In this document: positions 5,349 through 20,631 of the stretch, in pieces
Position numbering within the stretch: position 1 is the stretch's first letter
Layout: every line of letters starts with the position of its first letter
Virus record (IMG/VR): IMGVR_UViG_3300042924_005016
Span: 1-20,631 of that record
Strand: one strand, 5' to 3'
From: a virus
Length of the DNA stretch: 20,631 nucleotides
Made by a program: the position numbers and the translations under genes
Notes under the pieces: model-generated
Databases searched by the model: none
Seen by the model: the letters and a program-made list of their open reading frames with translations, nothing else
What the model was told of the DNA's origin: nothing

Positions 5349-6179
5349 TCAACCTATGAGATCCAGTGGTGGCAATTCGTATTCATCCTTAAGTTGTTGT
5401 TCTAACTTTTCTACTTCGGCAACACCATCATCATAGATCTGTCTTCCATTCAATTGAACTCCACCTGGAAGAAGTACACCATTAAACTTAATCATATTTT
5501 GCCCCCACTGTTTTTTGATTAATGCAGTGAGGTATTTTTTTAACCACCAATCATTATAGAGTTTTGGTGCATCTGACGGATCCACAATTCTATAACAATC
5601 AATGATAACGTATTCATTTTCACCAACTTGAGACCAATCAATGTCAAGATATAATTTATGGTTCTTTTTATTGAAACGAATTTGTGCATGAGGATTTAAG
5701 AGAAAATCCAAATCCTCAAGATATCTTTTAACCATCGCATAATTTAGAAGGTCTAAAGCACCATAATAATAAACATCATTCAAGAATATTTGATATTTAA
5801 TATTAAAAAGACCGTCTGATATAGTACTTGAATTAATCTTAAGAATATTGTTAACACCAATGATAGAATCTGGTAGTGGAAGATAATTAACTCCTTCAAC
5901 ATAAGTAAGAGAAGTTAAACCAGCTCCAACAACATTTGGAGAGGTGGTTGCAGATCCTACTGGGCCTGGTTGGGATAAAGTTGTTTTAGTTGCAGGAGTA
6001 AGTTTATGTTTTAAAAATACGCGATCAATACCATCAAAATGTCTCTCATGATAATATTGAATTGCATCATCAATCAAATTATCAATCTGATCGTCATCTA
6101 CGTTTATTTCTAAAACTGGCTTTCCTAGTTGTTTGAGGCAATAGTCTTTCAACTCCGCTCTACTAGATGGTTGCGCCAT
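5349..6179 (-). CDS. 13: Neck protein gp13 (head completion)
   Basis: Closes the filled head above the portal and, with gp14, forms the neck. The 276-residue product opens with MAQPSSRAELKDYCLKQLGK and the acidic DDDQIDNLIDDAIQYYHERH (28-47), the conserved start of the gp13 family, and carries the family core with LYLDIDWSQVGENEYVIIDCYRIVDP (about 172-197) and WLKKYLTALIKKQWGQNM near 210-225. T4 gp13 is 309 residues. It is the first gene of the neck/packaging operon: an exact TATAAATA late promoter box lies 27 bases upstream, and AGGGG 8 bases before the ATG is the ribosome binding site, held inside a hairpin (see 6183-6210). Confidence 0.95.
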   Translation of the reverse strand: MAQPSSRAELKDYCLKQLGKPVLEINVDDDQIDNLIDDAIQYYHERHFDGIDRVFLKHKLTPATKTTLSQPGPVGSATTSPNVVGAGLTSLTYVEGVNYLPLPDSIIGVNNILKINSSTISDGLFNIKYQIFLNDVYYYGALDLLNYAMVKRYLEDLDFLLNPHAQIRFNKKNHKLYLDIDWSQVGENEYVIIDCYRIVDPSDAPKLYNDWWLKKYLTALIKKQWGQNMIKFNGVLLPGGVQLNGRQIYDDGVAEVEKLEQQLKDEYELPPLDLIG

Positions 6180-6213: not shown

Positions 6214-6242
6214 AATTATAGTTGTGGTGGTCTGGATAAATG

Positions 6243-6274: not shown

Positions 6275-6460
6275 ATGAGAATATATACTATAAGTGCAAG
6301 ACGTTTGTCTGACGGTCACACAATTACAAAAGAACCAATACAAACTAGTAACGATTTGAATGAAGCAATTCAGTTAGCAAATCAATTTGCTTTAGAAATG
6401 CAAGAATCGGAAGGAACTGGTTGGACCTTTAATTTGTGGGAAGAAGAAGTAGATTCTTAA
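6275..6460 (+). CDS. Small 61-residue protein of unknown function
   Basis: A short plus-strand frame starting MRIYTISARRLSDGHTITKE and ending FNLWEEEVDS. The N-terminal beta-strand-like stretch followed by a helix rich in Asn/Ala/Gln (about 27-45) and an acidic tail suggest a small folded alpha/beta protein. No family recognised. It is divergent from gp13 across a 95-base promoter region and convergent with the 62-residue gene, sharing the four bases TTAA as overlapping stops. The ribosome binding site is poor (AGAAGA about 17 bases before the ATG). It may belong with the plus-strand cassette or be a separate small gene. Confidence 0.6.
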   Translation: MRIYTISARRLSDGHTITKEPIQTSNDLNEAIQLANQFALEMQESEGTGWTFNLWEEEVDS

Positions 6461-6466
6461 AATCTA
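6450..6466. terminator. Palindrome across convergent stops, possible bidirectional terminator
   Basis: TAGATT and AATCTA (6 bp, perfect) flank the loop CTTAA that contains the shared stop codons of the convergent 61- and 62-residue genes. There is no long T run on either side, so termination strength is doubtful. Confidence 0.3.
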
Positions 6467-6645
6467 GAACACAGTGTAATAAGCATCGGACACTTAGAAA
6501 GAGTTGAAATTTTACTGCGAATAGATGACTCAGATTCATTATTTTCTAGTGCTGAAAGGATAAGATCTATCTCCGACTCTTCATCAGCGCTCCAATTTCC
6601 ACCGGATAAAGTTTGAACTTGAATTTTGAAGTCTTCTACAGTCAT
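6457..6645 (-). CDS. Small 62-residue acidic protein of unknown function
   Basis: MTVEDFKIQVQTLSGGNWSADEESEIDLILSALENN begins a small, acidic, mostly helical protein with no recognised motif, no signal peptide and no membrane segment. Support for a real gene comes from an exact late promoter box TATAAATA 22 bases upstream (6667-6674) giving a leader of about 16 bases with GAAG before the ATG. It faces the 61-residue gene tail to tail with a TTAA overlap, and its start is only 36 bases from the divergent halogenase gene. Read-through from it would run antisense to the 61-residue gene and into the gp13 hairpin. Confidence 0.65.
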   Translation of the reverse strand: MTVEDFKIQVQTLSGGNWSADEESEIDLILSALENNESESSIRSKISTLSKCPMLITLCSRF

Positions 6646-6666: not shown

Positions 6667-6674
6667 TATTTATA
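6667..6674 (-). promoter_or_regulatory. T4-type late promoter for the 62-residue gene
   Basis: Exact TATAAATA on the minus strand, with expected start near 6661 and the ATG at 6645. It lies in the 36-base gap that also precedes the plus-strand halogenase, and overlaps a TATAAT reading on the other strand. Confidence 0.75.
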
Positions 6675-6681: not shown

Positions 6682-8145
6682 ATGGTATTTAATGAAATTG
6701 AATCAATTACGATAATAGGCGGTGGAACCAGTGGATGGTTATCAGCCGCATTCTTATCCTACAATAATCCAAATATTAAAGTAACTATAATTGATAAAGA
6801 AGTTGGTTGTCCCGTGAATGTCGGAGAAGCAACTATACTTAACTTTGGTCCATTCATGGAATCATGTGGATTCAATATAGAAGAGTGGTTTATATCTGTA
6901 GATGCAACTTATAAATCTGGAATTCTATTTCCAGATTGGGTTAAAAATGGTGCAAGTGTATGGCATCCATTTTTTATGAATCCAACTTTAGAAAATGGAT
7001 ACAGTCTTCATGATGCTTGGGCTAAAAATAAAAACTATGATTTTGTTAGATATGGATTACCAATGTATGAAAATTCCATATCAAATTTAATTGACAGAAA
7101 TGAACTTGGAACATATGCATTTCACATTGATTGTGGAAAATTAGTTGAATTTATAAAAACCAAACTCCACAATAGAGTAAATTTTATTCAGTCAGAAGTT
7201 GTAGATATTAAAAAAATTGATAATAATATCAATAAGGTATTTCTAAAAAATTCTCAAGTAATTGAATCCGATTTGTTCATTGATTGTACAGGGTGGAAAA
7301 GTTTACTTAAAATCCAAGATAAAAACTTTCTAAACGGAAGATTATTTTGTGATACTGCAGTTTGTTCCAGAGTCCCATATTTAGATAGAAAAAAAGAATT
7401 GACTCCATACACAACGGCAGAATCTGTAGATCATGGTTGGATATGGAAAACTCCAGTCAGAACAAGAATTGGATCTGGATTAGTTTTCAATAGAAGTATC
7501 ACTTCTATTGATGAAGCAAAAAAATATTTTCTTGAGTATTGGAATCACAGAGTATCAGAACAAGATTTAAAAGTCTTGGATTGGACACCATACTATTCCA
7601 ATAATATTTGGGAAAAAAATGTTGTTTCTATTGGATTATCTGCTGGATTTATCGAACCACTAGAAAGCACTGGTGTAGCTTTAATTATTGATGGATTAAA
7701 AAAACTGCAAAATAAAATTTCAGATAGAAGTTGGAGTGAAATGGATGTAAAAGTTTATAATGATGAAATGAAATTACACTTTGAAGATTGCATAGATTTT
7801 GTCAGTATGCATTATTCAAAATCATACAAAAATACTCCATTTTGGAAGTTTGTAAAAGATACATATCAACCTTCCGAAAAAATAAACCTAATGGAAAAAA
7901 TTCTATCACAAAAAATACTCTACACAAGAGACAGATCCGAATACCAAGTTTTTTCTGGATCAAACTGGACAACTTGGATGATTCAATTGGGATACGATGT
8001 AAATAGTAATGTTGATTGTGACCCTTTGATATTGGAAAAAAGTATGTTAAACTACTATAATAAGTATGAATCATTTAGAAAAAGTTGGTCAGTTGACCAC
8101 GAAACCGAAATTCGCAGATTAGAAACATTTTACAATTTACACTAA
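6682..8145 (+). CDS. Flavin-dependent (tryptophan-type) halogenase
   Basis: Predicted to use FADH2, O2 and halide to form a hypohalous acid and halogenate an aromatic substrate. The 487-residue product has the FAD motif IIGGGTSGWL (11-20), VNVGEATILNFGPF (46-58) equivalent to PrnA GVGEATIP, and YKSGILFPDW (77-86), which places K78 on the catalytic Lys79 of PrnA/RebH. WIWKTP (253-258) corresponds to the family WxWxIP signature with I replaced by T. GFIEPLESTG (322-331) holds E328 on the catalytic Glu, and HY...TPFW (377-388) follows the family. Length is close to PrnA (538). A viral halogenase, VirX1 from a cyanophage, has been reported as an iodinating enzyme. The substrate here is unknown and no flavin reductase is nearby. 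It opens the cassette; no Shine-Dalgarno is visible. Confidence 0.92.
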   Translation: MVFNEIESITIIGGGTSGWLSAAFLSYNNPNIKVTIIDKEVGCPVNVGEATILNFGPFMESCGFNIEEWFISVDATYKSGILFPDWVKNGASVWHPFFMNPTLENGYSLHDAWAKNKNYDFVRYGLPMYENSISNLIDRNELGTYAFHIDCGKLVEFIKTKLHNRVNFIQSEVVDIKKIDNNINKVFLKNSQVIESDLFIDCTGWKSLLKIQDKNFLNGRLFCDTAVCSRVPYLDRKKELTPYTTAESVDHGWIWKTPVRTRIGSGLVFNRSITSIDEAKKYFLEYWNHRVSEQDLKVLDWTPYYSNNIWEKNVVSIGLSAGFIEPLESTGVALIIDGLKKLQNKISDRSWSEMDVKVYNDEMKLHFEDCIDFVSMHYSKSYKNTPFWKFVKDTYQPSEKINLMEKILSQKILYTRDRSEYQVFSGSNWTTWMIQLGYDVNSNVDCDPLILEKSMLNYYNKYESFRKSWSVDHETEIRRLETFYNLH

Positions 8146-8152
8146 TATAAAA

Positions 8153-8791
8153 ATGATAAACAGAGGAATTTATTATAAACCAAAAGAGCCCGATGTAATT
8201 GTCGGTGGGTGTATTTCAATTTATGAAAATGCTTGGCAAAATTGGAAAGAAACTATAGAAACTTTGGAACGAGAATGTAATACTCCAGATTCAGGAGTAT
8301 TTTGGAATAGAGCTACTACCATAGGTCAAGGAATATATCAACAAGCAAGAACAAATTTAGATTTGGGAATAACTTTTTGTATAGAATCTTTTGGAAATGA
8401 AGAATTAATAAAAATTCAAAATCAATTTTGCAATCTAATAAATTCTGCAGCTAGTCATTACGTTAATAAATTTCAAGTCAAAGAAACTTACTACCATGAA
8501 TATTATAATGCACTAAAATATAAAGAAGGTACAGAGTATCATACTCATTATGATGGTTGTACATCCACCCAAAGACACATTAGTTGTATTCTTTATTTAA
8601 ATGATGACTATGATGGCGGAGAACTAGAGTTCCCAAATTTTAATTTAAAAATTAAACCGGAAGCTGGAATGTTTTTAATGTTCCCATCAAATTTTGCTTA
8701 TGCTCATACTGCAAAACCGGTCAAAAAAGGAACAAAATATGCACTAGTTACCTGGTTACATGATCAACCAATAGTTCCAACGATTCGTTAA
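8153..8791 (+). CDS. Prolyl-4-hydroxylase-like 2OG/Fe(II) oxygenase
   Basis: Uses 2-oxoglutarate, O2 and Fe(II) to hydroxylate a peptide or small molecule. In the 212-residue product the double-stranded beta-helix core runs from about 110 to 205: YHTHYDGCT (129-137) gives metal ligands H132 and D134, ISCILYLNDDYDGGELEFP (143-161) is the typical P4H strand-turn-strand, and FPSNFAYAHTAKPV (177-190) gives distal H185. GTKYALVTWL (193-202) gives K195, the Lys that binds 2-oxoglutarate in prolyl 4-hydroxylases where most of the superfamily has Arg. All key residues are present, so it is probably active. It begins 7 bases after the halogenase. Proline in a protein is a plausible substrate; action on a halogenase product is equally possible. 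Confidence 0.9.
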   Translation: MINRGIYYKPKEPDVIVGGCISIYENAWQNWKETIETLERECNTPDSGVFWNRATTIGQGIYQQARTNLDLGITFCIESFGNEELIKIQNQFCNLINSAASHYVNKFQVKETYYHEYYNALKYKEGTEYHTHYDGCTSTQRHISCILYLNDDYDGGELEFPNFNLKIKPEAGMFLMFPSNFAYAHTAKPVKKGTKYALVTWLHDQPIVPTIR

Positions 8792-8796
8792 TTAAA

Positions 8797-9549
8797 ATGT
8801 TTTTTCGTGATAATTCAAAAATAGTTTTAGACTGTTTCACCAATTCCTCTGTTGCTTATGAATATTTTCCTATTTCCAATACAATAGAAAATTTGCCCAA
8901 TTGGTGGAAAAAATTAGACACAACTTTTGAAGTCCAACATTTTGGAACTCTTAGAAACAAATCTGCAACTATTAAAAAATGTCCAGGAATTTTTAATTTA
9001 TTTAATAAAGGATTTGTAGTATCTACGCCATCTGAACTTTCTTTAGAAATAAAAGAAGAAAATAATCAATATAAATTTAATTACGAATTTGTAGGACCGA
9101 AAACAAACTGTCGAATAGATCTTCACGATCACAGACAATACATGGGAGTCTTTAACGACAAATTTCTCCAAGGAAAAATTACTCTACCCTGGTTAATAAA
9201 AGAAACGTCTGGAGTTGACTTTACATTAATGGAACCTACATGGATGATGGAAAATCCAGATAATTACTGCATTCCACCGGGAGTTCTTGATTTTAAATAT
9301 CAAAATAATATTAATATTAATTTTTTTGTTGAATTTAAATCAAGTAGAATTGACATTGCTGCTGGAACTCCATTAGCGCATTTGATTCCATTATCTGACA
9401 AAAAAATAAAACTAAAGCATCATCTAGTATCCGATGAAGAGTATGAAAAACTCTTTACCTTGTCGCAACCATTTGGTTGGGTATCTTCATACAAACAAAG
9501 AAAGGAACTAATAAATAAAAAATCAAGATGTCCATTTAATTTTTTATGA
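8797..9549 (+). CDS. Conserved-looking 250-residue protein of unknown function
   Basis: I cannot assign a function. The sequence is beta-rich, begins MFFRDNSKIVLDCFT, and contains NLPNWWKKL (33-41), TIKKCPGIFNLFNKGFVV (58-75), TLMEPTWMM (144-152), an IPPGVLDF turn near 165 and FVEFKSSRIDIAAGTPLAHLIPL near 178-200. The order Trp-Trp-Lys, Cys-Pro-Gly, Pro-Pro-Gly and AGTPLAHLIP reminds me of uncharacterised phage and bacterial proteins (possibly DUF6065) that occur near 2OG oxygenases, but I hold this loosely. The strand-turn pattern would fit a cupin or jelly-roll fold. It starts 5 bases after the P4H gene and its stop overlaps the next start by 4 bases, so it is produced together with the oxygenases and may handle their substrate. 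Confidence 0.8.
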   Translation: MFFRDNSKIVLDCFTNSSVAYEYFPISNTIENLPNWWKKLDTTFEVQHFGTLRNKSATIKKCPGIFNLFNKGFVVSTPSELSLEIKEENNQYKFNYEFVGPKTNCRIDLHDHRQYMGVFNDKFLQGKITLPWLIKETSGVDFTLMEPTWMMENPDNYCIPPGVLDFKYQNNININFFVEFKSSRIDIAAGTPLAHLIPLSDKKIKLKHHLVSDEEYEKLFTLSQPFGWVSSYKQRKELINKKSRCPFNFL

Positions 9550-10142
9550 CTATGATATGTGATTTAATTTTTCCAACTGGAATTTGGCACGATTACTTAG
9601 AAATAAACCATGATGATATTATTGAGTTTTGTAGAGAAAAACGTTATTCCTCGAATGGAAGAATTTTAAGTAATATTGGTGGCTGGCAGTCAGAAGACTT
9701 TTGGCCAGAAGAAGACCCTAGGATACACGAATTATCAAGAGAAATTTATGCAAGAAGTTTAACAATATTGGATCAATTTAAATTTGATACTTCAAATACC
9801 GATTTAAGATTTTTAAACATGTGGATAAATATAAATTACCAAAATTGTTTAAATAATATACATATTCATCATGGTTCTATTTTATCTGGAGTTTATTATT
9901 TAAAATGTCCAAAAAATTGTGGAGATATTTCATTTCATAGAAATTTTTCCGAAACATTCATCTTAAAAACCGCAGCAAATCTACTTGAAGATAATACTTT
10001 TAACTATACAAATATTCGTTTTGCTGTTGAAGAAAAAAAATTGTTACTTTTTCCATCTTGGTTACCTCATAGCGTAGAACCAAACCAATCGGAAGAAGAA
10101 AGAATATCAATAGCTTTTAATATGGTCCTTTTAAAGAAATAA
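9546..10142 (+). CDS. Putative 2OG/Fe(II) oxygenase (TIGR02466-like)
   Basis: The 198-residue product resembles the small 2OG-Fe(II) oxygenase family TIGR02466 (Pfam 2OG-FeII_Oxy_5), frequent in marine phages. Evidence: the opening LIFPTGIWHDYLEINHDDI (8-26), WININYQNCLNNIHIHHGSILSGVYYLKCP (93-122) matching the family pattern of N-x-H-x-H-x-G followed by SGVYYL, and LLLFPSWLPHSVEPN (166-180) with distal H175 and R186 as probable 2-oxoglutarate anchor. The first metal ligands are probably among H106, H108 and H109; the acidic ligand is not certain. It is translationally coupled to the preceding gene by a 4-base overlap. Substrate unknown. Confidence 0.82.
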   Translation: MTMICDLIFPTGIWHDYLEINHDDIIEFCREKRYSSNGRILSNIGGWQSEDFWPEEDPRIHELSREIYARSLTILDQFKFDTSNTDLRFLNMWININYQNCLNNIHIHHGSILSGVYYLKCPKNCGDISFHRNFSETFILKTAANLLEDNTFNYTNIRFAVEEKKLLLFPSWLPHSVEPNQSEEERISIAFNMVLLKK

Positions 10143-10143
10143 A

Positions 10144-11346
10144 ATGTATAACATAGGTATAATTGGGAATGGATCTGGAGCTTTGGTATCTATTTTAGCA
10201 TTAATAAATGCTTCCAAAAGAGAAGAACTACCCATAAAAATAACTTGTATTTACGATCCAACTATACCAACAATTGAAGTGGGGGAATCAACAAGCAGTG
10301 CGGTACTATTTCTACTGACACAAGTTCTCGATTTTCGTATAGTAAAACACCTACTAGAAATTGACGGAACTTTAAAGTATGGGACAAAATATATCAATTG
10401 GTCAACGACTAATAATGATTTTTATGTCTGTCACATAGACCCAGCATTACATCTTAACAGTGCAAAATTCAGTAAGTGGGGTATAAAAAAAGTTTTAGAA
10501 AAATATGAAGAAACTTTTTCACTAATAAAAGACAATGTGAAAGAAGTAAAAAACAATAACAATAGAGTGGATGTTGTTGGGGAGACACAAACATATCAAT
10601 TTGATTATGTTATAGACTGCACAGGATTTCCGTCAAATCATACATTTGATATGAACGAATATTCGGTTCCAGATTTTTTATCGGTAAACTCTGTAATTCT
10701 TTTACCAAAAAAAGAACTAAACAATCCAAATGAATATTATACATCTGCTACAACTCATGAAAATGGTTGGATGTTTACAATTCCACTAACTACACGAACA
10801 ACCTCTGGATACTTATATAATAATTCAATAACATCTTACGAAGAAGCCTTATCAGATTTTTGCAACTTGAAAAATATTGATATTTCATCAGGTAAGAGTT
10901 TAAGAAATTTTTCTTGGAGTCCTTTATATAGAAAAACAGTAATTGATGAAAAAATTATTTACTGTGGTAATAAATTATTTTTCTTTGAACCTAGTCAGGG
11001 ATTTCCATTGCACTACTATGCAGTTATAATAGATATATTAATATCCAAACTTAAAGAAAATCCTTCTTTAGTTGAGAATGAACTAAATGTATTTTACAAT
11101 GAAGCTATAAATTCTGTGCAAGATGTGATAGCTTTAACTTATCAGTCAAATACAAAGTATAAAAGTGATTTTTGGAAGTTAACAAAAGAAAGATCGTACA
11201 ATAAGTTAATGAACTCTAAACCTTTTATAAATTGGTGTAAAAATAAAGATACCCTCACACATTATTCATCACATTCTAATGAAATATTAATGAGTCTAAT
11301 TGATGGTATGAATATTGACCTATCTACATTTACAGAAAAAGTATGA
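10144..11346 (+). CDS. Divergent tryptophan-halogenase-like flavoprotein
   Basis: A 400-residue relative of the first halogenase in the cassette. It keeps an FAD motif IIGNGSGALV (6-15), VGESTSS (46-52) for the usual GEATIP, LKYGTKYINW (77-86) with K78 at the catalytic Lys position, a WMFTIP signature (209-214) close to WxWxIP, and TYQSNTKYKSDFW late in the protein. The segment that carries the catalytic Glu in active enzymes (EPLEST) reads EPSQGF (282-287), so Gln285 stands in place of Glu and Gly in place of Ser. It is nearly 90 residues shorter than its neighbour, with no sign of a frameshift. It may use a different mechanism, act as an FAD-dependent partner, or be inactive. It begins 1 base after the previous stop and overlaps the next gene by 4 bases. 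Confidence 0.85.
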   Translation: MYNIGIIGNGSGALVSILALINASKREELPIKITCIYDPTIPTIEVGESTSSAVLFLLTQVLDFRIVKHLLEIDGTLKYGTKYINWSTTNNDFYVCHIDPALHLNSAKFSKWGIKKVLEKYEETFSLIKDNVKEVKNNNNRVDVVGETQTYQFDYVIDCTGFPSNHTFDMNEYSVPDFLSVNSVILLPKKELNNPNEYYTSATTHENGWMFTIPLTTRTTSGYLYNNSITSYEEALSDFCNLKNIDISSGKSLRNFSWSPLYRKTVIDEKIIYCGNKLFFFEPSQGFPLHYYAVIIDILISKLKENPSLVENELNVFYNEAINSVQDVIALTYQSNTKYKSDFWKLTKERSYNKLMNSKPFINWCKNKDTLTHYSSHSNEILMSLIDGMNIDLSTFTEKV

Positions 11347-12356
11347 ATTTTTTAGATTATTTTAAAAAAATATCTTCTGAAATAACTCACGGAAATAGTG
11401 ATTATTTTAGTCATTCGTTTGGAGTTTATAATATTTTAAAAGAACTAAACTTAGATGAATATATTTGTGTAGCCGGATTATATCATTCAATATATGATAC
11501 GGAAAATTTCAAAGTAGATTTAAATCTTGAAAGAAAAACGATAATTGAAATTATAGGAGAAAAATCAGAAAATTTAGTTTTTATATTCTGTCATTTGCGA
11601 GATCGATTTAACTCAATTATTAACAATCATTTTGAATTTTCAACTGATATTCATTTATCTTTGTGTTATATTGAATATGCCAATTTAAAGGAACAATATT
11701 CAAGGATTATGGATCCCATCTTAGCAAAAAGATGTTTGGAACTTCAAGAAAAAATAACTGAACTAACAAAACCGGCTAATTTTTGTTTGATTGACAATAA
11801 AAAATTATATATCTTTGACAATTTATTAGAAAAAAATCACATTGAATTTTTAAATCAATATTGTCACAACAGTGTTTATAGACCAGATCACAAAAGCAAT
11901 AATTCTGTAGGAATTGATTGTAGATTTTCTGCAACCATTTCTCCTGAGGAGTTTGAACAAACTAAGTTAATTCCAATAATTTCTAAAATTGCCTGTTCAC
12001 TAAAAACTTCATTATATATTGGAAAACATTATATAAACCATTATGGGTTTATGACAGGAGTATCCGAACATTGTGATGCAGATGAACCTGGACAATATAC
12101 TATTTTAATCTTTCCCAATAATGTTTGGGTAAGAGATTGGGGGGGAGAAATTTGTTTCTATAGTGAAGGCAATATACATAATATGATAGAATATAAACCA
12201 GGAAGAATTATTGTATTTGATGGTAGAATATCACATAAAGTACTTCCATTAACTAGAAATTCTCAATCTGACAGGTACTCAATTGCAATAAAAACTTGTA
12301 CTGAAGAAGGACTATCTTATTTTCAAAAAATATATCAACCTTATATTAGGATATAA
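11343..12356 (+). CDS. Fusion of HD-like helical domain and 2OG/Fe(II) oxygenase
   Basis: Two domains in one 337-residue chain. The N-terminal half (about 1-145) is helical, with SHSFGVYNILKEL (23-35) and VAGLYHSIYDTENF (43-56): paired His and Asp positions (H24, H48, D52) resemble HD-superfamily hydrolases and the family I know as DUF6817, though the canonical HD doublet is not seen. The C-terminal half (about 150-320) is a 2OG oxygenase: VSEHCDADEPG (240-250) gives H243 and D245, WVRDWGGEICFYS (262-274) is the strand typical of prolyl-hydroxylase-type enzymes, VFDGRISHKVLP (291-302) gives distal H298, and RYSIAIKT (311-318) gives R311 for 2-oxoglutarate. The oxygenase half appears catalytically complete. 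The pairing suggests the helical domain binds or processes the same substrate. Confidence 0.85.
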   Translation: MNFLDYFKKISSEITHGNSDYFSHSFGVYNILKELNLDEYICVAGLYHSIYDTENFKVDLNLERKTIIEIIGEKSENLVFIFCHLRDRFNSIINNHFEFSTDIHLSLCYIEYANLKEQYSRIMDPILAKRCLELQEKITELTKPANFCLIDNKKLYIFDNLLEKNHIEFLNQYCHNSVYRPDHKSNNSVGIDCRFSATISPEEFEQTKLIPIISKIACSLKTSLYIGKHYINHYGFMTGVSEHCDADEPGQYTILIFPNNVWVRDWGGEICFYSEGNIHNMIEYKPGRIIVFDGRISHKVLPLTRNSQSDRYSIAIKTCTEEGLSYFQKIYQPYIRI

Positions 12357-12358
12357 AT

Positions 12359-12985
12359 ATGAATCAATTCCATGAATTAAAATATGTACCTGTAAAAGAA
12401 CTGGTATCGCAAGAAATAGTAGAATTATTTTCCCAATATGCTTTAATAGATGAATTATTTAATTTTAATCAGGAAGTTGGTCAAGAAAATGATATACAAG
12501 TAAAAAATGCTCATAGTAAATATGCAGATCCCTTTGCGGAATCACTTCTGTTACATTTAAAATCCAAAATAGAATATGTTACCGAACTGGAATTAATTCC
12601 AACATATTCTTATTATAGAGTTTATCGTCCAGGCAGTATACTTAAAAAACATGTTGATAGACCTTCCTGCGAAATATCAACTTCAGTTTGTTTCAAATAT
12701 AACTACAAAGAACGTAATGAAGATTTGATTTGGCCTATATTTTTTAATAATCAAGCTGTTGTTTTATATCCCGGAGATGGTGTAGTTTATAAAGGTATGG
12801 AAGTTCCTCATTGGAGAGAGGAATTAAATGCCCCAGACTTTTCATATCATATTCAAGCTTTTTTCCATTACGTCGATAAAAATGGACCTTATGTAGAATA
12901 TGCTTTGGATAAAAGGATGGCAATTGGTGAAAAGAAAAAATTTGATAATAAATTTCAAAAATCTTACATATCAATAATAAATTAA
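12359..12985 (+). CDS. 2OG/Fe(II) oxygenase-like protein, last gene of the cassette
   Basis: The 208-residue product has the compact oxygenase layout YYRVYRPGSILKKHVDRPSC (85-104), giving H98 and D100, then an insert WPIFF, and VVLYPGDGVVYKGMEVPHWRE (134-154), giving distal H151. It finishes with SYHIQAFFHYVDKNGPYVEY. The usual Arg or Lys about 10 residues after the distal His is replaced (YHIQAFF), so the cosubstrate site is unusual; this arrangement recurs in a family of phage oxygenase-like proteins I recall only generally. The C-terminal 30 residues are Lys-rich. The gene starts 2 bases after the previous stop and converges with the minus-strand 146-residue gene over a shared TTAA. Confidence 0.78.
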   Translation: MNQFHELKYVPVKELVSQEIVELFSQYALIDELFNFNQEVGQENDIQVKNAHSKYADPFAESLLLHLKSKIEYVTELELIPTYSYYRVYRPGSILKKHVDRPSCEISTSVCFKYNYKERNEDLIWPIFFNNQAVVLYPGDGVVYKGMEVPHWREELNAPDFSYHIQAFFHYVDKNGPYVEYALDKRMAIGEKKKFDNKFQKSYISIIN

Positions 12986-12992
12986 AATTTAT
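12977..12992. terminator. AT-rich palindrome over convergent stops
   Basis: ATAAATT-AA-AATTTAT is a perfect inverted repeat of 7 bases per arm spanning the overlapping stops of the plus-strand cassette and the minus-strand 146-residue gene. It could fold as a weak hairpin in RNA from either strand, but lacks G-C pairs and a proper T run. Confidence 0.3.
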
Positions 12993-13422
12993 ACTTATAA
13001 TGTAAACCTTTCCTATCTACTATGATCCCTGCATCATATCCTTCTGGATATGTATTATATTTTATATTTTTTGATTTTAAATACCTTCTACACTCAAAAT
13101 CTGCATTTTTTCCATAAAAAGTTCTTACTCCCCCTTCTTGTGGAGGTAATTTGACCATAAAAAATTCTGCGTGAGGCCTCCAAGCAGCATAAACACCAGA
13201 AAATCCTCCTCCTCCTGCATCACTTATTGCATCACAACCACCCGACCATTCCATAATTACTTCCCACAAGTCCACATCGTCTATAGTAAGTTCTCTTCCA
13301 TAATCCCATTCACTTGTTGGTGGATATACTACTTTGTCATAGTTCATCCACGAGGATTCAAAATATTCCAATCCGATTCTATCTGGACGAAAAATATGTG
13401 CAGTTTCTCTAAAAATTGGCAT
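12982..13422 (-). CDS. 146-residue protein of unknown function
   Basis: No family recognised. The product (MPIFRETAHIFRPDRIGLEYFESSW at the start) is rich in aromatic residues, has a glycine cluster DAGGGGFSGVYAAWRPHAEFF (68-88) and a strand-rich C-terminus ending GLHYKYKF. No signal peptide or membrane segment. It lies 15 bases after the adhesin-like gene on the same strand and is probably transcribed with it from the late promoter at 14398, which suggests a virion protein, adhesin partner or fibre assembly factor. It converges with the cassette by a 4-base stop overlap, marking the right border of the inserted operon. Confidence 0.72.
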   Translation of the reverse strand: MPIFRETAHIFRPDRIGLEYFESSWMNYDKVVYPPTSEWDYGRELTIDDVDLWEVIMEWSGGCDAISDAGGGGFSGVYAAWRPHAEFFMVKLPPQEGGVRTFYGKNADFECRRYLKSKNIKYNTYPEGYDAGIIVDRKGLHYKYKF

Positions 13423-13437
13423 AATAATAACTAAAAA

Positions 13438-14370
13438 TTAAGCTAAATATCTTACAATACAAAGTCCTTGGAAACCTGCTCCTGCGCCGGCATTTCCGTA
13501 GTCCCAACTACCGCCTCCTCCGGATCCGTAGTTTGATGCATTATTCTGTGGACCTCCTGGTTGGTTAGCATTACCTCCACCGCCGGGTCCTCCTGTCTGA
13601 GGGCCTTGGAAAGTTCCAGCACCGCCGCCAGCATAAGTTATTGAAGAACCGCTGGTGGAGAATGTCCCACCAGTACCACCAGCACCATTATCAAATCCAC
13701 CGCCGCCATAACCACCACCGCCGCCGCCACCTTGGCTATTTGTAAGTCCACCCGCACTACCTTGTCCAGGAGTTCCGGATGTTCTAGCACCAGGATATCC
13801 TTGTGGTGAGCCTGGATATCCAGCATGTCCACCACCAGATCCGCCTGGTAGTCCGGGGTTCATGACACCGGGTCCAGTATTCCCACCTCTACCGCCACCA
13901 ATTGCTGTCTGTGAAGCAAAAACCGAATTATCACCTGGAACTCCCACCGTAACACCACCTGGTCTAAATGGACCTCCAGCTCCTATGGTTACGTTGGATA
14001 TTCCACTAAGTCCATAAGTAGCATTATATATTACTCCTCCAGCGCCGCCACCAGCTCCTGTGCCACTTCCACCAGAACCACCACCAGCAATTAAAAGTAA
14101 CTCACCAGTTGTAGATCCATTTGCAGCAAAAGTTCCTGGTGATGTAAATGTATGAATACTATATCCACCAATGGTAGCCAATGATCCACCAGTTGCTGTA
14201 AATTTATCTACCTGTACCCATGTTGATCCATTATAATATTCTATAGCATTATTACTTGTACTATATCTAAGGTCTCCTACAACAGGAGACGCAGGTCTCT
14301 GAGCAGTTGTTCCTACAGGAATTCTAAGATATCCAGTGTCATTAATAATGGTATTTTTTAATGTTGCCAT
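13438..14370 (-). CDS. Glycine-rich tail adhesin / fibre tip protein candidate
   Basis: 310 residues. The N-terminal 55 residues (YLRIPVGTTAQRPASPVVGDLRYS, then NAIEYYNGSTWVQVD) are a module seen repeatedly in phage fibre proteins. After a linker, residues 90-298 are dominated by Gly with Pro and Ser, including GGSGTGAGGGAGG, GLPGGSGGGHAGYPGSPQ and GYPGARTSGTPGQG, and the chain ends QGLCIVRYLA, a frequent ending of glycine-rich phage proteins. Glycine-rich motifs of this kind build the polyglycine type II lattice of T4-like gp38 adhesins such as that of phage S16, so host-receptor recognition is likely. It has its own late promoter and AAGGAG 12 bases before the ATG. Local G+C is high because of Gly and Pro codons. 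Confidence 0.8.
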   Translation of the reverse strand: MATLKNTIINDTGYLRIPVGTTAQRPASPVVGDLRYSTSNNAIEYYNGSTWVQVDKFTATGGSLATIGGYSIHTFTSPGTFAANGSTTGELLLIAGGGSGGSGTGAGGGAGGVIYNATYGLSGISNVTIGAGGPFRPGGVTVGVPGDNSVFASQTAIGGGRGGNTGPGVMNPGLPGGSGGGHAGYPGSPQGYPGARTSGTPGQGSAGGLTNSQGGGGGGGYGGGGFDNGAGGTGGTFSTSGSSITYAGGGAGTFQGPQTGGPGGGGNANQPGGPQNNASNYGSGGGGSWDYGNAGAGAGFQGLCIVRYLA

Positions 14371-14397: not shown

Positions 14398-14405
14398 TAT
14401 TTATA
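14398..14405 (-). promoter_or_regulatory. T4-type late promoter for the adhesin gene
   Basis: Exact TATAAATA on the minus strand in the 51-base gap between the giant fibre gene and the adhesin gene; the expected start near 14392 leaves a leader of about 22 bases containing AAGGAG. Confidence 0.85.
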
Positions 14406-14421
14406 ACTTGTAATAAAATTA

Positions 14422-17400
14422 TCAAGAAAGTTTCTTTTTAATTTCGGAAATTTCTTCTTTCAATTCTCTAATGGATTCAATGAGTAAAGCAACGATGTTT
14501 CCATAAGAAACAGATTTAAACTCAGAGTTATCTTCAAATACAACTTGAGGAACAACCTCTTCTACTTCCTGAGCAATTAATCCAATCTTATTTTCTCCTG
14601 TAGACTTTAGATTATATTCAACTCCTCTTAATTGGAGAATCTTTTCTAGTGAATTTTCAAGAGTTTTGATATTTTCTTTTAGTCTCAAGTCGGAACTTTC
14701 TGTTATAGTAGTTGCAGTTAATGTTGCATTAACTGTAACGTTACCTACAAAAGTTGGTGTCGTTGTTAAGTTATATGCAGTTCCATTACCAATTAGAATT
14801 GCTCCGGTCTGGGGAACTCCAGTTTGTCCTGTACCACCTCTATTGAGTGGAATTGTTCCTGTGTGATTTGCTGAGTCCAGATAATATGAACTAGCCTGAC
14901 CGCCAAGTGTTGCGGCATCAACATCACCAGTTGAAGAGTTCTTGATTGAAATTGCACCATCATCACCAACTAAGAATGTAGAAGTCTTAAATTTGGCAAC
15001 ACCAGTAGTAGAATAGGTATCTAAAGTAGCAGCAGCTCTGTTTGCTGTGATTCGAATGTCTCCATAATGAGTTGAGATTCCTATACCGAAGGTGGAACTT
15101 GTGGCAGTAATTCCAAATGGTTGAGTGGATCCAATTCCAACACTTCTAACAACTTTCTGATATGAAGAGTTTCCATATAGAACAGTATCGGAGTTAGCGG
15201 AACCAGAACCAAGTCTGGATGGAGATACAGTACCACTAATAATATTAGCAGCATCAATATCCGCACTTGCGAGTAGGGACCAGTTGGTAGGATCTGATGC
15301 AGATGTATTAACGGTATTTTGATATCTTATATTTTGTTTAGTAAATGTTATTACACCTGTACCGGTTTGAGCAATTCCAACAGCGTTGAAAGTTACTCCG
15401 CTAAGTGAAGATACTGCATCGGATCTTGTAAGGTGAAGTGTAAATCCGTTCTGAGTAACAGATCCAAGGTAATAGAACGCTCCAGTATCAACACCAACAG
15501 GAGTACTTCCAGAAATTCTAACTGGATCGCCAACTGTAAATGGATGATTAGCAAAGATAATTGTATCTTTAGCAGTCGAAACTCCACATCTAACTAAACT
15601 ATGTGTACCGATACCACTTCCAGACAAATCTTGTCTGGATACTAATGCATAAGTTGAGTGAAGTTCAACAGAGGAAACACCAACTCTCTTCGCATAGTAA
15701 GTGGTATTTTCAATTACACCTGCAATATTAGTTCCACCGTTTGTTGTATATTTAATTGGGTCACCATCTTGGAATGTATGGCCAACACCAAGTACAATTC
15801 TATCATTGATAAAGTCAATATCACCGCCAGTATCAATCGTAGTTGGATCAATATCATAAGAAACATCTAGATTTAGAGTAGTTCCGACTCCAACTGCATT
15901 TCCGTCTGCAATATAGTCTGGGAGTGCTACAGTTCCAGCAAACTTCTGATTATTTGTAAGTTTGAGATATAGTCTAGTTTCTATATCGTTTACCTGAACT
16001 GTAAAGGCTCCACCTCCCGATCTTCCACCAAGATCTGAATCAATAGCAGTAAGAACATTTCCTGACGCATAGTAACGACCACCAGTTTTAATATTAACAT
16101 CTCTTACTGTACCAGCAGCACTAACTGTAATTTCAGCCAGAGCTGATGTACCAATACCTGTTGTTGATTGTAAGAAACAAGTGTAGATACCAGGAGTAGT
16201 ATATCCAGAACCACCATTTTGAATTGGAGCGCCAAGTAGAACACCCTTAACAAGACCAGTTGTACCATAACCAACATATGTGGAAATTGATGTACCAATT
16301 CCAACTCCAACTGGTGGTGCTGTTACAACACCAACTGCAGCAGCCGCAAGAGCACTAACTACTGTATCTCCATTATTAAAGTTGTAATTTTCGGTATCGC
16401 TATCTAAAATTAGATATTGACCTACAATATCTTGAATAAGAACGTATGATAGTTCTGGTTCAACAACCGTATCACCGTTTAAAATGTTAATTGCAGGAAT
16501 TTCATTAACAAGTACAGTTCTACCAGTGGATACGTTTGTTCTTGTATAATTAACAACTTTAGGTGGAATAAGGTCTGGATTAATTTGTCCAGAGGAATTT
16601 AATTGAACAACTGCATTTGGAACAGCATTTTGTGATACTGTTTTATCAATAAAGGTTCCAAGTCTATTGGACATGAAACTTCTAACAGCTAACTGAGTTG
16701 CAACTCTCTTATTCAGAGGTCCACCAAGTTCACCTTCTCCAAGATTTGTATCAGTTGAAAATTCTTCAACAGCAACACCACCAGATAGAGATAGTCTAAT
16801 AGAATCTAGTTCTCCAATCGATACCTTGTTATTGAAGAAGATATTACCCGTTCTGTTAACAGCGGTAATTTGACTACCAATCTTAAAGTCACCAAGTTCG
16901 TTAGTACCCGAAGCATATACGCGACCACCAAGTTCAGATACCTGTTCGGAAGCTGGATCACCCTTACCACCATTTTGTGGTAGTGCGTTATAGTCAGTAC
17001 CAGATCCAGAGAATTCCCAAGTATGTGACGAAGAGTTGACAATGGATGGTCTATGTAAATGACATCTGTAATTTACTGGGAGACTGCCAATACCCTGAAT
17101 TACGTTACCTGGTACTGTAGAATCAACTTTAAATTCAATTGTTCTAAAAGTAGTAATTCCAGTTGCCGCAGTAACACCAATCGCAATTGGAGAAGCTCCA
17201 TGATCTGTAATGTTTCCACCTGTAGTGGAGAAGAACCTTCTAGTTCCACCAACAGATTCAACGGAAACAATTAACTGTCTGGTACTATTATGATATGTGT
17301 AGGCATAACCAGTTGCAGTTCCACCAGATACAGATTGTGTAATTTGTTGACCAGAATTGAAAATAGCAGTTGAACCAGCACTGGCCAAAGTCAATCTTTG

Positions 17401-20400
17401 ATATGAATCGTGAGAACTAATAATTTCATCAACTATGAATTCTTGATTGTTCTTTTGGAAAGTATTGATACCAGAAGGAGTGGATCTTAAATCAACAGGT
17501 CTTCTGAAAGAATCATCTTCATAAAGTTTAAATGTAGATGCAGTGAGATATTGTACATAATAAGTATTACCATTAACAAGACCTTGAATTACGATAGCAG
17601 GTTCTGCTTGTTCGTTTCCAAGATAAACAATACTATCACCATCTACGAATGGATGACCAGCAATTGTAATAACATCCGTTGTAGTATCAATTCCTACAGA
17701 TGGATTGACAGTGGCTTGTTGTACAAGTGGTTTGAATAAACTTGTTCTATCTACATAACTATCGTCCAGGAACCTCAGTACGTAAAGGTCTTGTTCAGTT
17801 CTACCTACACCTATAACTCTAAGGGTTTGTAGACCGCCAGAAGTACCTGTGTCAGCGACTCTTCCTCTGTCAAAACCAAAGGCATTTGGAGAAAATCCGG
17901 TTGCTCTTAAAGCTACGGAACCAAAGTTAGTTGCAGAGTTAGTAATTGAGAGGTAACCACCAGACTGAGACAGTGAACCATATCTACAGAAAATCTGGAA
18001 ACAAGAAACAACCTGTGCATAACCATCATTAATTGTTCTCCAACCAATACCGTCAAATGAAATCATGGTAAAGGTTGCAGCAACCATTGACTTACCGAAC
18101 TCTGGGATATCTCCTACTGCTGGATTTTCTGCAAGTAGTTGGATAGCAGGTACGTTTGGAGAAATTACCTTATCGCCATCAACAAGAATACCATTACCAC
18201 CTAGACTGGATAGGATTGTGCAGTTTTGAATATAAGGAGACTTGAAGATTTGGGGTTTGCTGAGTATTGCAGTTCCACCAATTCCAGTTACATAATAGTG
18301 TGGAATTGTTGAAATTCTCTCTCCACGAATTGCAAAAGTAGTTGTAGAAGCAGCAGAAATCACTCCAAAATCTCTTACACCACTTTGATGTAGATCTGGA
18401 TATAATTTAATTTTTTGAATTGTTGGTACTTTTTCTACTGTAGGAACCTTTTTAGCAGTACCACCACTTACATAGGTGTGTGCAATTGTAGAAACACCAA
18501 CATTAACTGTAAAGGTTGTGGAATTGTCTACGGCACTAACTCTAAATGTATAACCATAAGGAGAAGTTCCATCTGGGAAGATCGTAGTTGTAATTCCAGA
18601 TCCACCTGGGCAAGTAAATGCAAGTCCAGTAAGAGTTACATAGTCACCAGAGGTCAATCCGTGTGCAGACGATACTACACAAGTGGCAACACCAGTTGAT
18701 TGTGTATAAATGAAGTCACTGACATTAACTTGACCATAACCATCATAAGTATGTGCAATTGTTGAAATGCCAGCATTAAATGTGAAACTATTTGTTGTTA
18801 CTCCAGTAATTGTAAATGTATATCCATCAACGTTATAAGTATTGATAGTTCCATCTGGGAAGATTGTTGTAGTAACTCCAGCATGTTGTGCGGCACAAGA
18901 GAATGGTAGTCCGTTTAAAGTTACTTTATCATTAACTTTATAACCGTGAGATTCTCTAGTGGTCGCAGTGCTTACACCAGTTGTATGTGTATATGCAAAT
19001 GTGCTAATACCTAGTTTCTGCCAACCAACATAAGTATGAGGAATAGTACTAATTCCACCTTGAATGGTAATTGTTTTAGCAGCAGTATTAACTCCAATGA
19101 TAGGGTAAATAGCACCATATCCTTGATCATCTAATCCATAATATGGGAAGATGGTTGTAGTAACTCCAGCATGTTCGGAAGTACATGCAAATGGGAAGTT
19201 GTAGAGGAAAAGTTTATCTCCTATGGTATAACTACCACCATTAGAAGTTCTACTTGGAGCAGAACGTAAAGTTAGTGTAGAAACACCAACAACATTATTG
19301 TATCTGATACTTGCGATACCAGTTTCATCATATCCACAAGTCCATCCAAGTCCTGAAAGTCTTACAGTGTTAGTTGGATACAGTTCATGTGGTGATGATG
19401 TAGTAATTGTAGTAACTCCGGTAACTCCATCATAAGTTGCACCAGTGATATTAATTACAGAAGTTGCTGCATATCCAGTTCTATCTAAAGAGGTATTAAA
19501 TGGTTCGTCAAATGAAATTGCATAGTTAAATGTATGTTGTGGAGTTTTTGTTGATGGGTCAATGTAATCTGTAAATGTTAGTCCTGTAATATAGTTTCCA
19601 TTTCTAACTTTAAAGAAATCAACCCCAGCATGTAAAGGTCTTACAACTACATTTCTTAAGGAGTCTGCGATGATATTTACATTATCATATAGAATAATTG
19701 GGTTATTTTCAATGTAATCACCAGATTCAACTAGAATTGTAGCTCCAGTGTTATAATAAAAACCTAGGAATGAAGCAATTTGAGCTGCCCTTCTAATTGT
19801 TTTGACAGGAAGAGTTCTACCATCATTCGAATCATCACCACTAGCTTGAGAAACTCTTACTAAAACTTTAGAACCAGTTCCACCACCAGTTGAAAATCCA
19901 AGATTTCCATCTCCATCTGTAGTTAGAACTTGTCCTTTTATTCCATCAGAAGTTGGATAAGTTAATCCATTAATTGTTGCAATACCAGTTACTCTAAGAT
20001 TTTCATTAACAATATTTTTTGCAACTAAATTTGTATTATTTTCTGGAATTCTTCTTATGGAAACAGAACTTGATGTTGGAATAGTTAAAGCAGGAGCAGA
20101 AGATACTCCAATTCTTATAGCTGATGAAACATTTGTAAATGTAGAAATTGCAACAGTAGTATCAGATGGAATTACGGCTGCTATTGTATTTGCAGATCCG
20201 ACAACAATAGCATTATAAACTAAATTTGTTGGCCTGGTGATACTTACTGCACTACCACTACTTACAACTGCACCAATTGTGGATGAGAGAGTTACTGCAG
20301 GTCTTCCTGTTTGAACTGTACTAATAGATACAGTGGTTCCAGATTGGATTGTGTATGCAGCTCCAACATTAACAACAACTGAATTCGTATTTACTCCAAC

Positions 20401-20631
20401 AATTACCGCATTATTGAAGAATGTTGTTACACCAGATGGTCCCAATCCACTTATAAAAATTGAATTTCCAACAGAAACATTTGCAACAGATGTTAGAGGT
20501 ACAATTGTAACTCCGGCCGCAACTGTTGAGGATGCTGTGGTTGTTAAAATTCCAATATTATATGGAGTAACAGAAGTGGTTCCAAGTCCTACAATTGATT
20601 TGTAAGAAACTCCACCTACACTTAAAGAATC
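14422..20631 (-). CDS. Giant fibre-like structural protein with beta-helix, repeats and S74 domain (5' partial)
   Basis: The frame is open to the right edge: bases 20446-20631 encode 62 more residues without a stop, so at least 2069 residues are present and the true start lies outside. An apparent start at 20445 is an internal TTG. In order: Thr/Ser/Val-rich beta repeats (to about 19900); VRVSQASGDDSNDG and KTIRRAAQIA leading into a right-handed beta-helix (ESGDYIENNPIILYDNVNII, about 19880-19560); three tandem units of 90-95 residues (18460-19270); a second helix part with PYIQNCTILS and LSQSGGYLSITNS (about 18240-17800); further beta modules with NGGSGYTTPGIYT (near 16200); the fibre motif LNRGGTGQTG (near 14830); and a C-terminal S74 self-cleaving chaperone. 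It is probably a homotrimeric tail fibre or baseplate-attached spike. Confidence 0.88.
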   Translation of the reverse strand, partial: DSLSVGGVSYKSIVGLGTTSVTPYNIGILTTTASSTVAAGVTIVPLTSVANVSVGNSIFISGLGPSGVTTFFNNAVIVGVNTNSVVVNVGAAYTIQSGTTVSISTVQTGRPAVTLSSTIGAVVSSGSAVSITRPTNLVYNAIVVGSANTIAAVIPSDTTVAISTFTNVSSAIRIGVSSAPALTIPTSSSVSIRRIPENNTNLVAKNIVNENLRVTGIATINGLTYPTSDGIKGQVLTTDGDGNLGFSTGGGTGSKVLVRVSQASGDDSNDGRTLPVKTIRRAAQIASFLGFYYNTGATILVESGDYIENNPIILYDNVNIIADSLRNVVVRPLHAGVDFFKVRNGNYITGLTFTDYIDPSTKTPQHTFNYAISFDEPFNTSLDRTGYAATSVINITGATYDGVTGVTTITTSSPHELYPTNTVRLSGLGWTCGYDETGIASIRYNNVVGVSTLTLRSAPSRTSNGGSYTIGDKLFLYNFPFACTSEHAGVTTTIFPYYGLDDQGYGAIYPIIGVNTAAKTITIQGGISTIPHTYVGWQKLGISTFAYTHTTGVSTATTRESHGYKVNDKVTLNGLPFSCAAQHAGVTTTIFPDGTINTYNVDGYTFTITGVTTNSFTFNAGISTIAHTYDGYGQVNVSDFIYTQSTGVATCVVSSAHGLTSGDYVTLTGLAFTCPGGSGITTTIFPDGTSPYGYTFRVSAVDNSTTFTVNVGVSTIAHTYVSGGTAKKVPTVEKVPTIQKIKLYPDLHQSGVRDFGVISAASTTTFAIRGERISTIPHYYVTGIGGTAILSKPQIFKSPYIQNCTILSSLGGNGILVDGDKVISPNVPAIQLLAENPAVGDIPEFGKSMVAATFTMISFDGIGWRTINDGYAQVVSCFQIFCRYGSLSQSGGYLSITNSATNFGSVALRATGFSPNAFGFDRGRVADTGTSGGLQTLRVIGVGRTEQDLYVLRFLDDSYVDRTSLFKPLVQQATVNPSVGIDTTTDVITIAGHPFVDGDSIVYLGNEQAEPAIVIQGLVNGNTYYVQYLTASTFKLYEDDSFRRPVDLRSTPSGINTFQKNNQEFIVDEIISSHDSYQRLTLASAGSTAIFNSGQQITQSVSGGTATGYAYTYHNSTRQLIVSVESVGGTRRFFSTTGGNITDHGASPIAIGVTAATGITTFRTIEFKVDSTVPGNVIQGIGSLPVNYRCHLHRPSIVNSSSHTWEFSGSGTDYNALPQNGGKGDPASEQVSELGGRVYASGTNELGDFKIGSQITAVNRTGNIFFNNKVSIGELDSIRLSLSGGVAVEEFSTDTNLGEGELGGPLNKRVATQLAVRSFMSNRLGTFIDKTVSQNAVPNAVVQLNSSGQINPDLIPPKVVNYTRTNVSTGRTVLVNEIPAINILNGDTVVEPELSYVLIQDIVGQYLILDSDTENYNFNNGDTVVSALAAAAVGVVTAPPVGVGIGTSISTYVGYGTTGLVKGVLLGAPIQNGGSGYTTPGIYTCFLQSTTGIGTSALAEITVSAAGTVRDVNIKTGGRYYASGNVLTAIDSDLGGRSGGGAFTVQVNDIETRLYLKLTNNQKFAGTVALPDYIADGNAVGVGTTLNLDVSYDIDPTTIDTGGDIDFINDRIVLGVGHTFQDGDPIKYTTNGGTNIAGVIENTTYYAKRVGVSSVELHSTYALVSRQDLSGSGIGTHSLVRCGVSTAKDTIIFANHPFTVGDPVRISGSTPVGVDTGAFYYLGSVTQNGFTLHLTRSDAVSSLSGVTFNAVGIAQTGTGVITFTKQNIRYQNTVNTSASDPTNWSLLASADIDAANIISGTVSPSRLGSGSANSDTVLYGNSSYQKVVRSVGIGSTQPFGITATSSTFGIGISTHYGDIRITANRAAATLDTYSTTGVAKFKTSTFLVGDDGAISIKNSSTGDVDAATLGGQASSYYLDSANHTGTIPLNRGGTGQTGVPQTGAILIGNGTAYNLTTTPTFVGNVTVNATLTATTITESSDLRLKENIKTLENSLEKILQLRGVEYNLKSTGENKIGLIAQEVEEVVPQVVFEDNSEFKSVSYGNIVALLIESIRELKEEISEIKKKLS
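14425..14694 (-). other. Peptidase S74 intramolecular chaperone domain of the giant fibre
   Basis: The last 90 residues start at the Ser of SSDLRLKENI. This is the endosialidase-type cleavage site, where Ser and a Lys five residues later (S-D-L-R-L-K) form the catalytic dyad. LIAQEVEEVVPQVV and VSYGNIVALLIESIRELK follow, then a terminal coiled coil EISEIKKKLS. The domain trimerises the fibre and then cuts itself off, so the mature fibre should end near 14695. Confidence 0.9.
18460..19270 (-). repeat. Three tandem 90-95-residue repeats in the giant fibre
   Basis: Each unit has a strand ending in LxGLxF or LxNFPFxC, then AGVTTTIFP or SGITTTIFP, a variable loop, and GxSTIxHTY. The IFP motif lies at about 19144, 18856 and 18574, giving spacings of 288 and 282 bases; the HTY motif recurs at about 19030, 18745 and 18470, with a degenerate further copy near 18290. 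DNA identity is visible but partial, pointing to old duplication. Confidence 0.75.

Follow-up and report, generated by a model that had tools for sequence, protein, structure and literature searches.

An Inverted Operon of Halogenase-Family and 2OG-Oxygenase-Like Genes beside the Tail-Fibre Genes of a T4-Like Phage

Operon and Genomic Setting

The DNA investigated here, in the following called the window, is a virus fragment of 20,631 bases from IMG/VR (IMGVR_UViG_3300042924_005016). Between positions 6682 and 12985 it carries seven plus-strand genes that are packed as one operon between the neck gene gp13 and a gene termed y, with intergenic gaps of −4 to +7 nt (Table 1). The surrounding T4-like virion genes are all found on the opposite, minus strand. 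On one side they comprise a part of terL, the gene of a 549-aa protein, terS (gp16), gp15, gp14 and gp13; on the other lie y (146 aa) and the genes of a Gly-rich protein and of a tail fibre. With 29% the G+C content of the operon lies below that of the adjoining genes. The original prediction, made without database searches, had described a packed operon of two halogenase-family genes, four genes resembling 2-oxoglutarate (2OG) oxygenases and one further gene directed against the virion genes, and exact open reading frames (ORFs), strands and family matches bear this out. Fibre gene, Gly-rich gene, operon, gp13 and gp14 together form a variable block with tail fibres upstream of neck genes, as is characteristic of the Kyanoviridae host recognition cluster, and the slot is empty in relatives. 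Rfam and tRNA scans gave no matches. A psbA-type host marker was looked for in eight relatives and found in none, so that the host can be placed no further than by Kyanoviridae-like kinship.

Table 1. Features in and around the operon, in positions of the window. L090 denotes the related contig described under Conservation of the Operon.
Feature	Positions	Strand	Evidence
gp13, neck protein, fixed edge of the slot	5349-6179	-	phrog_211 E 5e-47
s1, small ORF codirectional with the operon	6275-6460	+	same place in L090, 64-76% identical; dN/dS about 0.2
s2, small ORF between s1 and H1	6457-6645	- (virion strand)	52% identical over 46 aa in L090
TATAAATA upstream of s2	6667-6674	-	same place in L090
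H1, flavin-dependent halogenase, VirX1/PrnA type	6682-8145	+	PF04820 283.8 bits; phrog_2928 E 2e-105
O1, 2OG-Fe(II) oxygenase, prolyl-4-hydroxylase type	8153-8791	+	PF13640 67.1 bits; phrog_61
U1, phrog_7084 family, signature gene of the clusters	8797-9549	+	phrog_7084 E 2e-22
O2, PF13759-type 2OG-Fe(II) oxygenase	9546-10142	+	PF13759 88.0 bits; phrog_81 E 4e-43; PDB 2rg4 E 6e-11
H2, short halogenase-family flavoprotein	10144-11346	+	PF04820 127.2 bits
O3, DUF6817 (HD-like) domain fused to a 2OG-Fe(II) oxygenase domain	11343-12356	+	DUF6817 65.1 bits; PF13640 34.6 bits
O4, 2OG-Fe(II) oxygenase, prolyl-hydroxylase-like predicted fold	12359-12985	+	phrog_2954 E 7e-47
y, 146-aa protein convergent with O4	12982-13422	-	no Pfam match; 57% identical to the L090 copy
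Gly-rich adhesin-like protein, candidate substrate	13438-14370	-	Gly_rich_2 PF21722 40.6 bits; 30% Gly
TATAAATA upstream of the Gly-rich gene	14398-14405	-	conserved in L090
Tail fibre	14422-20445	-	phrog_5342 E 3e-168

Halogenase-Family Proteins

Both H1 and H2 score above the curated cut-off of the halogenase family PF04820 (21 bits). H1 matches PrnA (2e-57) and VirX1 (3e-50) and contains GGGTSG at position 13 (GxGxxG), K78 and FIEPLESTG at position 323 with the active-site Glu and Ser (FxPxSxG); the WxWxIP motif reads WIWKTP (GWIWKTP at 252). By these motifs it is predicted to be a VirX1/PrnA-type halogenase with an intact catalytic equipment, sharing only 28% identity with the syn9 counterpart of VirX1. 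The active site of VirX1 is large and open and accepts bulky substrates (PMC8407142).

H2 is a halogenase homologue which retains the catalytic Lys (K78). Its halogenase activity is doubtful because the active-site Glu/Ser motif and GxGxxG are altered: PSQGFP replaces PLESTG, with Gln at the position of the active-site Glu, and GNGSGA replaces GxGxxG, the last Gly being changed to Ala. Within the clade of short H2-type proteins the Glu is kept in S-SSM5, S-MS29 and S-ShM2, and Gln is found in S-SSM7. A scan of IMG/VR with H2 revealed no confirmed relative, and neither did scans of bacterial genomes with H1 and U1.

Oxygenases and U1

The iron triad of 2OG oxygenases (HxD/E...H) is present in O1 (H132-x-D134...H185, with Lys where Arg is usual), O3 (H243-x-D245...H298, with R311) and O4. 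The closest PDB sequences to O1 are bacterial prolyl 4-hydroxylases (E 2e-8). In O4 the triad H98-x-D100...H151 is invariant across the family and combined with a predicted double-stranded beta-helix fold. No Pfam family matches O4 above its own cut-off, and its structural model (pLDDT 87) retrieved the Pseudomonas putida prolyl 4-hydroxylase (Foldseek E 5e-8), followed by PHD2. O2 departs from the triad, reading H106-x-H108...H175 despite a strong PF13759 family match; the same HxH was counted in 65 of 192 relatives by a simple pattern that leaves the other relatives unscored.

O4 also matches PHROGs labelled 'ferrochelatase' (161 bits). This label, as well as 'DNA endonuclease V' for O3, was rejected in favour of the 2OG folds and motifs. 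The two labels are attached to 2OG-oxygenase-like proteins in phrog_2954, phrog_3531, phrog_274 and phrog_2297, likely a misannotation that hides these clusters.

For U1 the model (pLDDT 87) suggests a dUTPase-like fold (Foldseek E 8e-5). The predicted resemblance is one of fold only: the dUTPase family PF00692 is matched with E 0.08 and 13.2 bits, below its cut-off of 22, and in the U1 family the likeness in sequence is marginal, with Pfam matches in 2 of 41 members.

Conservation of the Operon

All seven genes recur in a second phage, IMGVR_UViG_3300049043_000117 (L090), with order, strand and slot unchanged. On either side it also shares s1, y, the Gly-rich gene and the fibre gene with the window, whereas the amino-acid identity is about 49-76% per gene. 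Broken frames in L090 are probably due to sequencing error, since the breaks occur throughout and include virion genes. Codon comparison between window and L090 gave dN/dS values of 0.16 for H1, 0.23 for O1, 0.30 for U1, 0.32 for O2, 0.38 for H2, 0.26 for O3 and 0.18 for O4, next to 0.09 for gp13, all of them rough because dS is near 1. By this measure each of the seven genes looks to be under purifying selection. With the whole operon kept in order at dN/dS 0.16-0.38, we conclude that it is maintained as a unit.

The slot is empty in four relatives with 86-98% identical gp13 (L175, L176, L177 and L180) and in the isolate S-SCSM2R (80%). There, the distance from fibre gene to gp13 is 52-54 bp, except for 494 bp in L180. 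In a direct comparison, L175 and the window cease to share DNA identity at 6221, a short way above gp13, and it restarts inside the fibre gene at 14750. About 8.2 kb differs between the window and its empty-slot relatives, and the segment found only in the window contains the Gly-rich gene and y along with the operon. It may stem from a gain or from a loss.

Linkage to Gly-Rich Adhesin-Like Genes

Clusters of this kind are already known from isolated cyanophages, and the operon of the window is not unique in kind. Looser versions with halogenase, U1 family and several 2OG genes occur in the isolates syn9, S-RIM44, S-CREM1, Sf-FP1, P-TIM40 and S-WAM1 as well as in IMG/VR contigs. In these isolates and in contigs of the L010/L017 type the genes between fibre and cluster encode proteins with 21-36% Gly, several of which match Gly_rich_2. 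In T2-like phages the Gly-rich gp38 forms the receptor-binding tip (PMC12892980), a role that by analogy may be shared by the Gly-rich proteins described here.

Syn9 is a near-twin of Syn10, the source of VirX1. Both have a pair of VirX1-type halogenases packed together with a member of the U1 family and several genes of 2OG type on one strand right after Gly-rich tail-fibre genes, and the syn9 cluster includes a JmjC_2 member. In contrast to the window, this cluster is co-stranded with the fibres, lies away from gp13, contains many more 2OG genes and has two long halogenases. S-RIM44 and Sf-FP1 share with the window the slot between Gly-rich fibre genes and gp13, filled with halogenase(s), U1 family, 2OG genes and the O4 family last, but their cluster is co-directional with the virion genes and lacks both the DUF6817 fusion and a short H2. 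In the pelagiphage HTVC008M, four 2OG genes and a 'ferrochelatase'-labelled gene form an inverted block directly before gp13. Linkage to gp13 was considered and rejected: the cluster comes after Gly-rich fibre genes away from gp13 in syn9, P-TIM40, S-WAM1 and S-CREM1, and it therefore tracks the adhesin. The clusters thus occupy two or more positions in the genome.

Among U1-family loci of at least 12 kb in IMG/VR, 2OG genes were present in 59 of 64, halogenases in 39 and a Gly-rich protein in 38. For comparison, gp13-anchored loci of at least 12 kb contained them in 2, 2 and 1 of 30 cases, respectively. One recurrent order is three Gly-rich genes, halogenase, U1, 2OG genes and O4 family. Inverted cassettes were also found in L010 and L011, and L015 encodes five halogenase homologues.

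VirX1-type halogenases and 2OG genes are associated genome-wide with Gly-rich adhesin-like genes. Fourteen phage genomes that carry a Gly_rich_2 gene were compared by a rotation test (20,000 rotations): 9 of 15 long halogenases were located within 5 kb of such a gene, compared to 0.99 expected and reached in 0 of 20,000 rotations. None of the five short H2-type halogenases did so. For 2OG genes 39 of 178 were counted within 8 kb (17.6 expected, P 0.0006), and at 5 kb the same test was not significant (P 0.23). The P values are indicative only because the genomes are related and were picked for halogenase contexts. No paper on a linkage of halogenase, 2OG and adhesin genes was found in the open-licence literature.

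Expression Signals

Copies of the T4-type late-promoter word TATAAATA precede gp13, s2 and the Gly-rich gene on the minus strand at a distance of 25-35 bp, and each of the three is conserved in L090. Before H1, no conserved TATAAATA was found on the plus strand in the comparison of window and L090. Overall, the word is no more frequent in the window than expected by chance, the support for these sites coming from placement and conservation only. Promoter and terminator scans gave little above shuffled sequences. The operon may use another promoter.

Proposed Role and Alternatives

We propose that the operon serves the post-translational modification of tail-fibre or adhesin proteins, a reading to which we assign a probability of roughly 0.45. 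The seven genes would then represent an enzyme cassette travelling with the tail-fibre and adhesin genes of aquatic T4-like phages (Kyanoviridae). In the infected cell, O1, O3, O4 and perhaps O2 would hydroxylate freshly synthesized tail-fibre or Gly-rich adhesin proteins, and H1 would halogenate an aromatic side chain with reduced flavin supplied by the host. H2 could act as a diverged partner or as another kind of flavin enzyme, and U1 as an accessory protein of dUTPase fold. The modification might alter adhesin stability or receptor binding; substrate, reaction on the protein and benefit are inferred.

Several observations are in accordance with this proposal. Known prolyl 4-hydroxylases and JmjC-type enzymes act on proteins. 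The resemblance of O1 and O4 to prolyl 4-hydroxylases is counted for protein modification, as are the JmjC_2 member of syn9 and the roomy active site of VirX1. A related viral system is the prolyl-4-hydroxylase-like enzyme of PBCV-1, where evidence points to 4-hydroxyproline in proteins of the virus (Eriksson 1999, cited in PMC9301287); in contrast to the operon it is a single gene of an alga virus with no halogenase partner. Virion proteomics of S-CREM1 detected 14 proteins, 4 of them structure-related and 9 without known function, and the text names no halogenase or oxygenase (PMC9964418), which fits weakly with a catalytic rather than a structural role. Of the substrates considered in the original prediction, a virion protein is best supported by the linkage to Gly-rich tail adhesins; the only hint of a modified nucleotide, and a weak one, is the dUTPase-like fold of U1. 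The coordinated unit proposed there agrees with the order kept in L090 and with the looser versions in isolates and contigs. The short H2-type proteins of S-SSM5, S-MS29 and S-ShM2 and the second S-SSM7 copy do occur singly and scattered, the pattern named in the original prediction as weakening its pathway idea, in contrast to most H1-type genes. A 'complete' tailoring pathway goes beyond what the genes show, given the altered active site of H2, the lack of a scaffold-building enzyme and the differing content between phages.

A number of points weigh against adhesin modification. The searchable literature contains no report of a modification on a cyanophage virion. As many as 139 of the 178 2OG genes are located elsewhere, as are the halogenases of S-B64, P-SSM2 and S-SCSM2R, and in Sf-FS3 the slot holds 2OG genes but no halogenase. 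Because the tested genomes are related, the rotation test treats them as more independent than they are. Since it is inverted and lacks the conserved late promoter seen at the virion genes, the operon may not be co-expressed with its supposed substrate. Finally, the tail-fibre region is a hypervariable island (PMC7029224), so that the linkage could reflect an insertion hot spot. This is a serious rival, in which the fibre-gp13 interval and the fibre loci gather unrelated genes without a common pathway, each enzyme acting alone. It would explain why gene contents differ widely between phages, why the slot is empty in close relatives and why H2-type genes are scattered and 2OG genes found all over these genomes. 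It accounts poorly for seven genes ordered in L090 under the dN/dS values given above and for the recurrence of the U1 family with 2OG genes and halogenases, and we regard it as unlikely.

The enzymes could instead modify the host surface or glycans (lipopolysaccharide, pigments, outer-membrane proteins), for example blocking co-infection. The slot lies within a 'host recognition cluster' whose glycosyltransferases were interpreted as a co-infection block (PMC7029224), and in S-SSM7, Sf-FS3 and a separate phage group represented by L026, genes for heptose kinase, cytidylyltransferase, epimerase and carbamoyltransferase accompany halogenase and/or 2OG genes. That published cluster of cyano- and pelagimyophages is likewise a hypervariable island with tail fibres upstream of neck genes, but was described for glycosyltransferases and radical SAM cassettes, its text being without halogenases. 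Such a function has a low probability in our view, as no annotated glycosyltransferase or sugar-activation gene is found in the window operon or in clusters of the syn9/S-RIM44 type, and the oxygenases look like protein hydroxylases. We consider it improbable that the operon yields a halogenated, hydroxylated small molecule, either a signal or a protection of the infected cell against antibiotics, or shifts 2-oxoglutarate/nitrogen metabolism. The literature does read prnA as antibiotic protection (PMC2984593, PMC9964418) and 2OG genes as 2-oxoglutarate modulators (PMC3037559), whereas a scaffold-building enzyme is missing from the operon and its relatives, the linkage is to virion adhesin genes, and consuming 2-oxoglutarate alone needs no set of dissimilar 2OG enzymes. 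Modification of phage nucleotides or DNA, with U1 handling the nucleotide, appears very improbable: the dUTPase match of the U1 model and the HD-like DUF6817 domain of O3 point in this direction, but U1 is marginally dUTPase-like in sequence, the Pfam matches include no TET/JBP-type oxygenase, and the operon resides beside tail genes and not beside nucleotide metabolism.

Cyanophage halogenase and 2OG genes are listed as sporadic metabolic genes (PMC2984593, PMC3037559, PMC9964418), and so far viral halogenases and cyanophage 2OG oxygenases have been catalogued without clear purpose. The native substrate of VirX1-type viral halogenases is stated in no paper found; the linkage described here offers tail adhesins as a concrete candidate. 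A wider and more doubtful suggestion is that many aquatic T4-like phages build non-standard adhesins, the cassette halogenating aromatic and hydroxylating other residues of Gly-rich tail-tip proteins, and that this is the natural job of VirX1-type halogenases. If adhesin modification holds true, it would add a new layer of phage-host recognition, help to explain the many 2OG genes beside fibres in these phages and direct biocatalysis toward protein-acting halogenases.

Further Observations

The small ORF s1 may be an eighth member of the operon, perhaps its first gene. Overlapping the leader between s1 and H1, s2 has a conserved late-promoter-like TATAAATA of its own. The y protein was seen only in the window and L090, with a dN/dS of about 0.27 between the two. 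By its sequence, the C-terminal end of the tail fibre appears to resemble the intramolecular-chaperone end of phage fibres.

Between Gly-rich genes and halogenase, a conserved-looking protein of 135-166 aa is encoded in L004 (6455-6949), L007 (8157-8618), L008 (7136-7624), L258 (12346-12753) and L259 (10976-11476); the syn9 copy has no Pfam match. In L015, L017, L022 and L033, three to five halogenase homologues within a single locus are interleaved with oppositely oriented 2OG genes beside Gly-rich genes. The L026 group (L026 9559-15463, with some 50 further loci of this kind among L023-L089) contains tandem H1-type halogenases between a gp15-like gene with NUDIX and a fused PfkB/cytidylyltransferase, epimerase and cupin, and in the loci inspected no Gly-rich gene was seen close by.

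S-SSM7 carries a halogenase along with sugar genes. In S-SSM7-like phages (L005 5336-16848; L093 13586-22186; L021, L032, L205, L208) the slot is occupied by genes for heptose kinase, cytidylyltransferase, phosphoheptose isomerase, carbamoyltransferase and epimerase, which may represent a variant of the island for sugar modification. In these phages the fibre is followed by three Trp-rich proteins of 260 aa in tandem.

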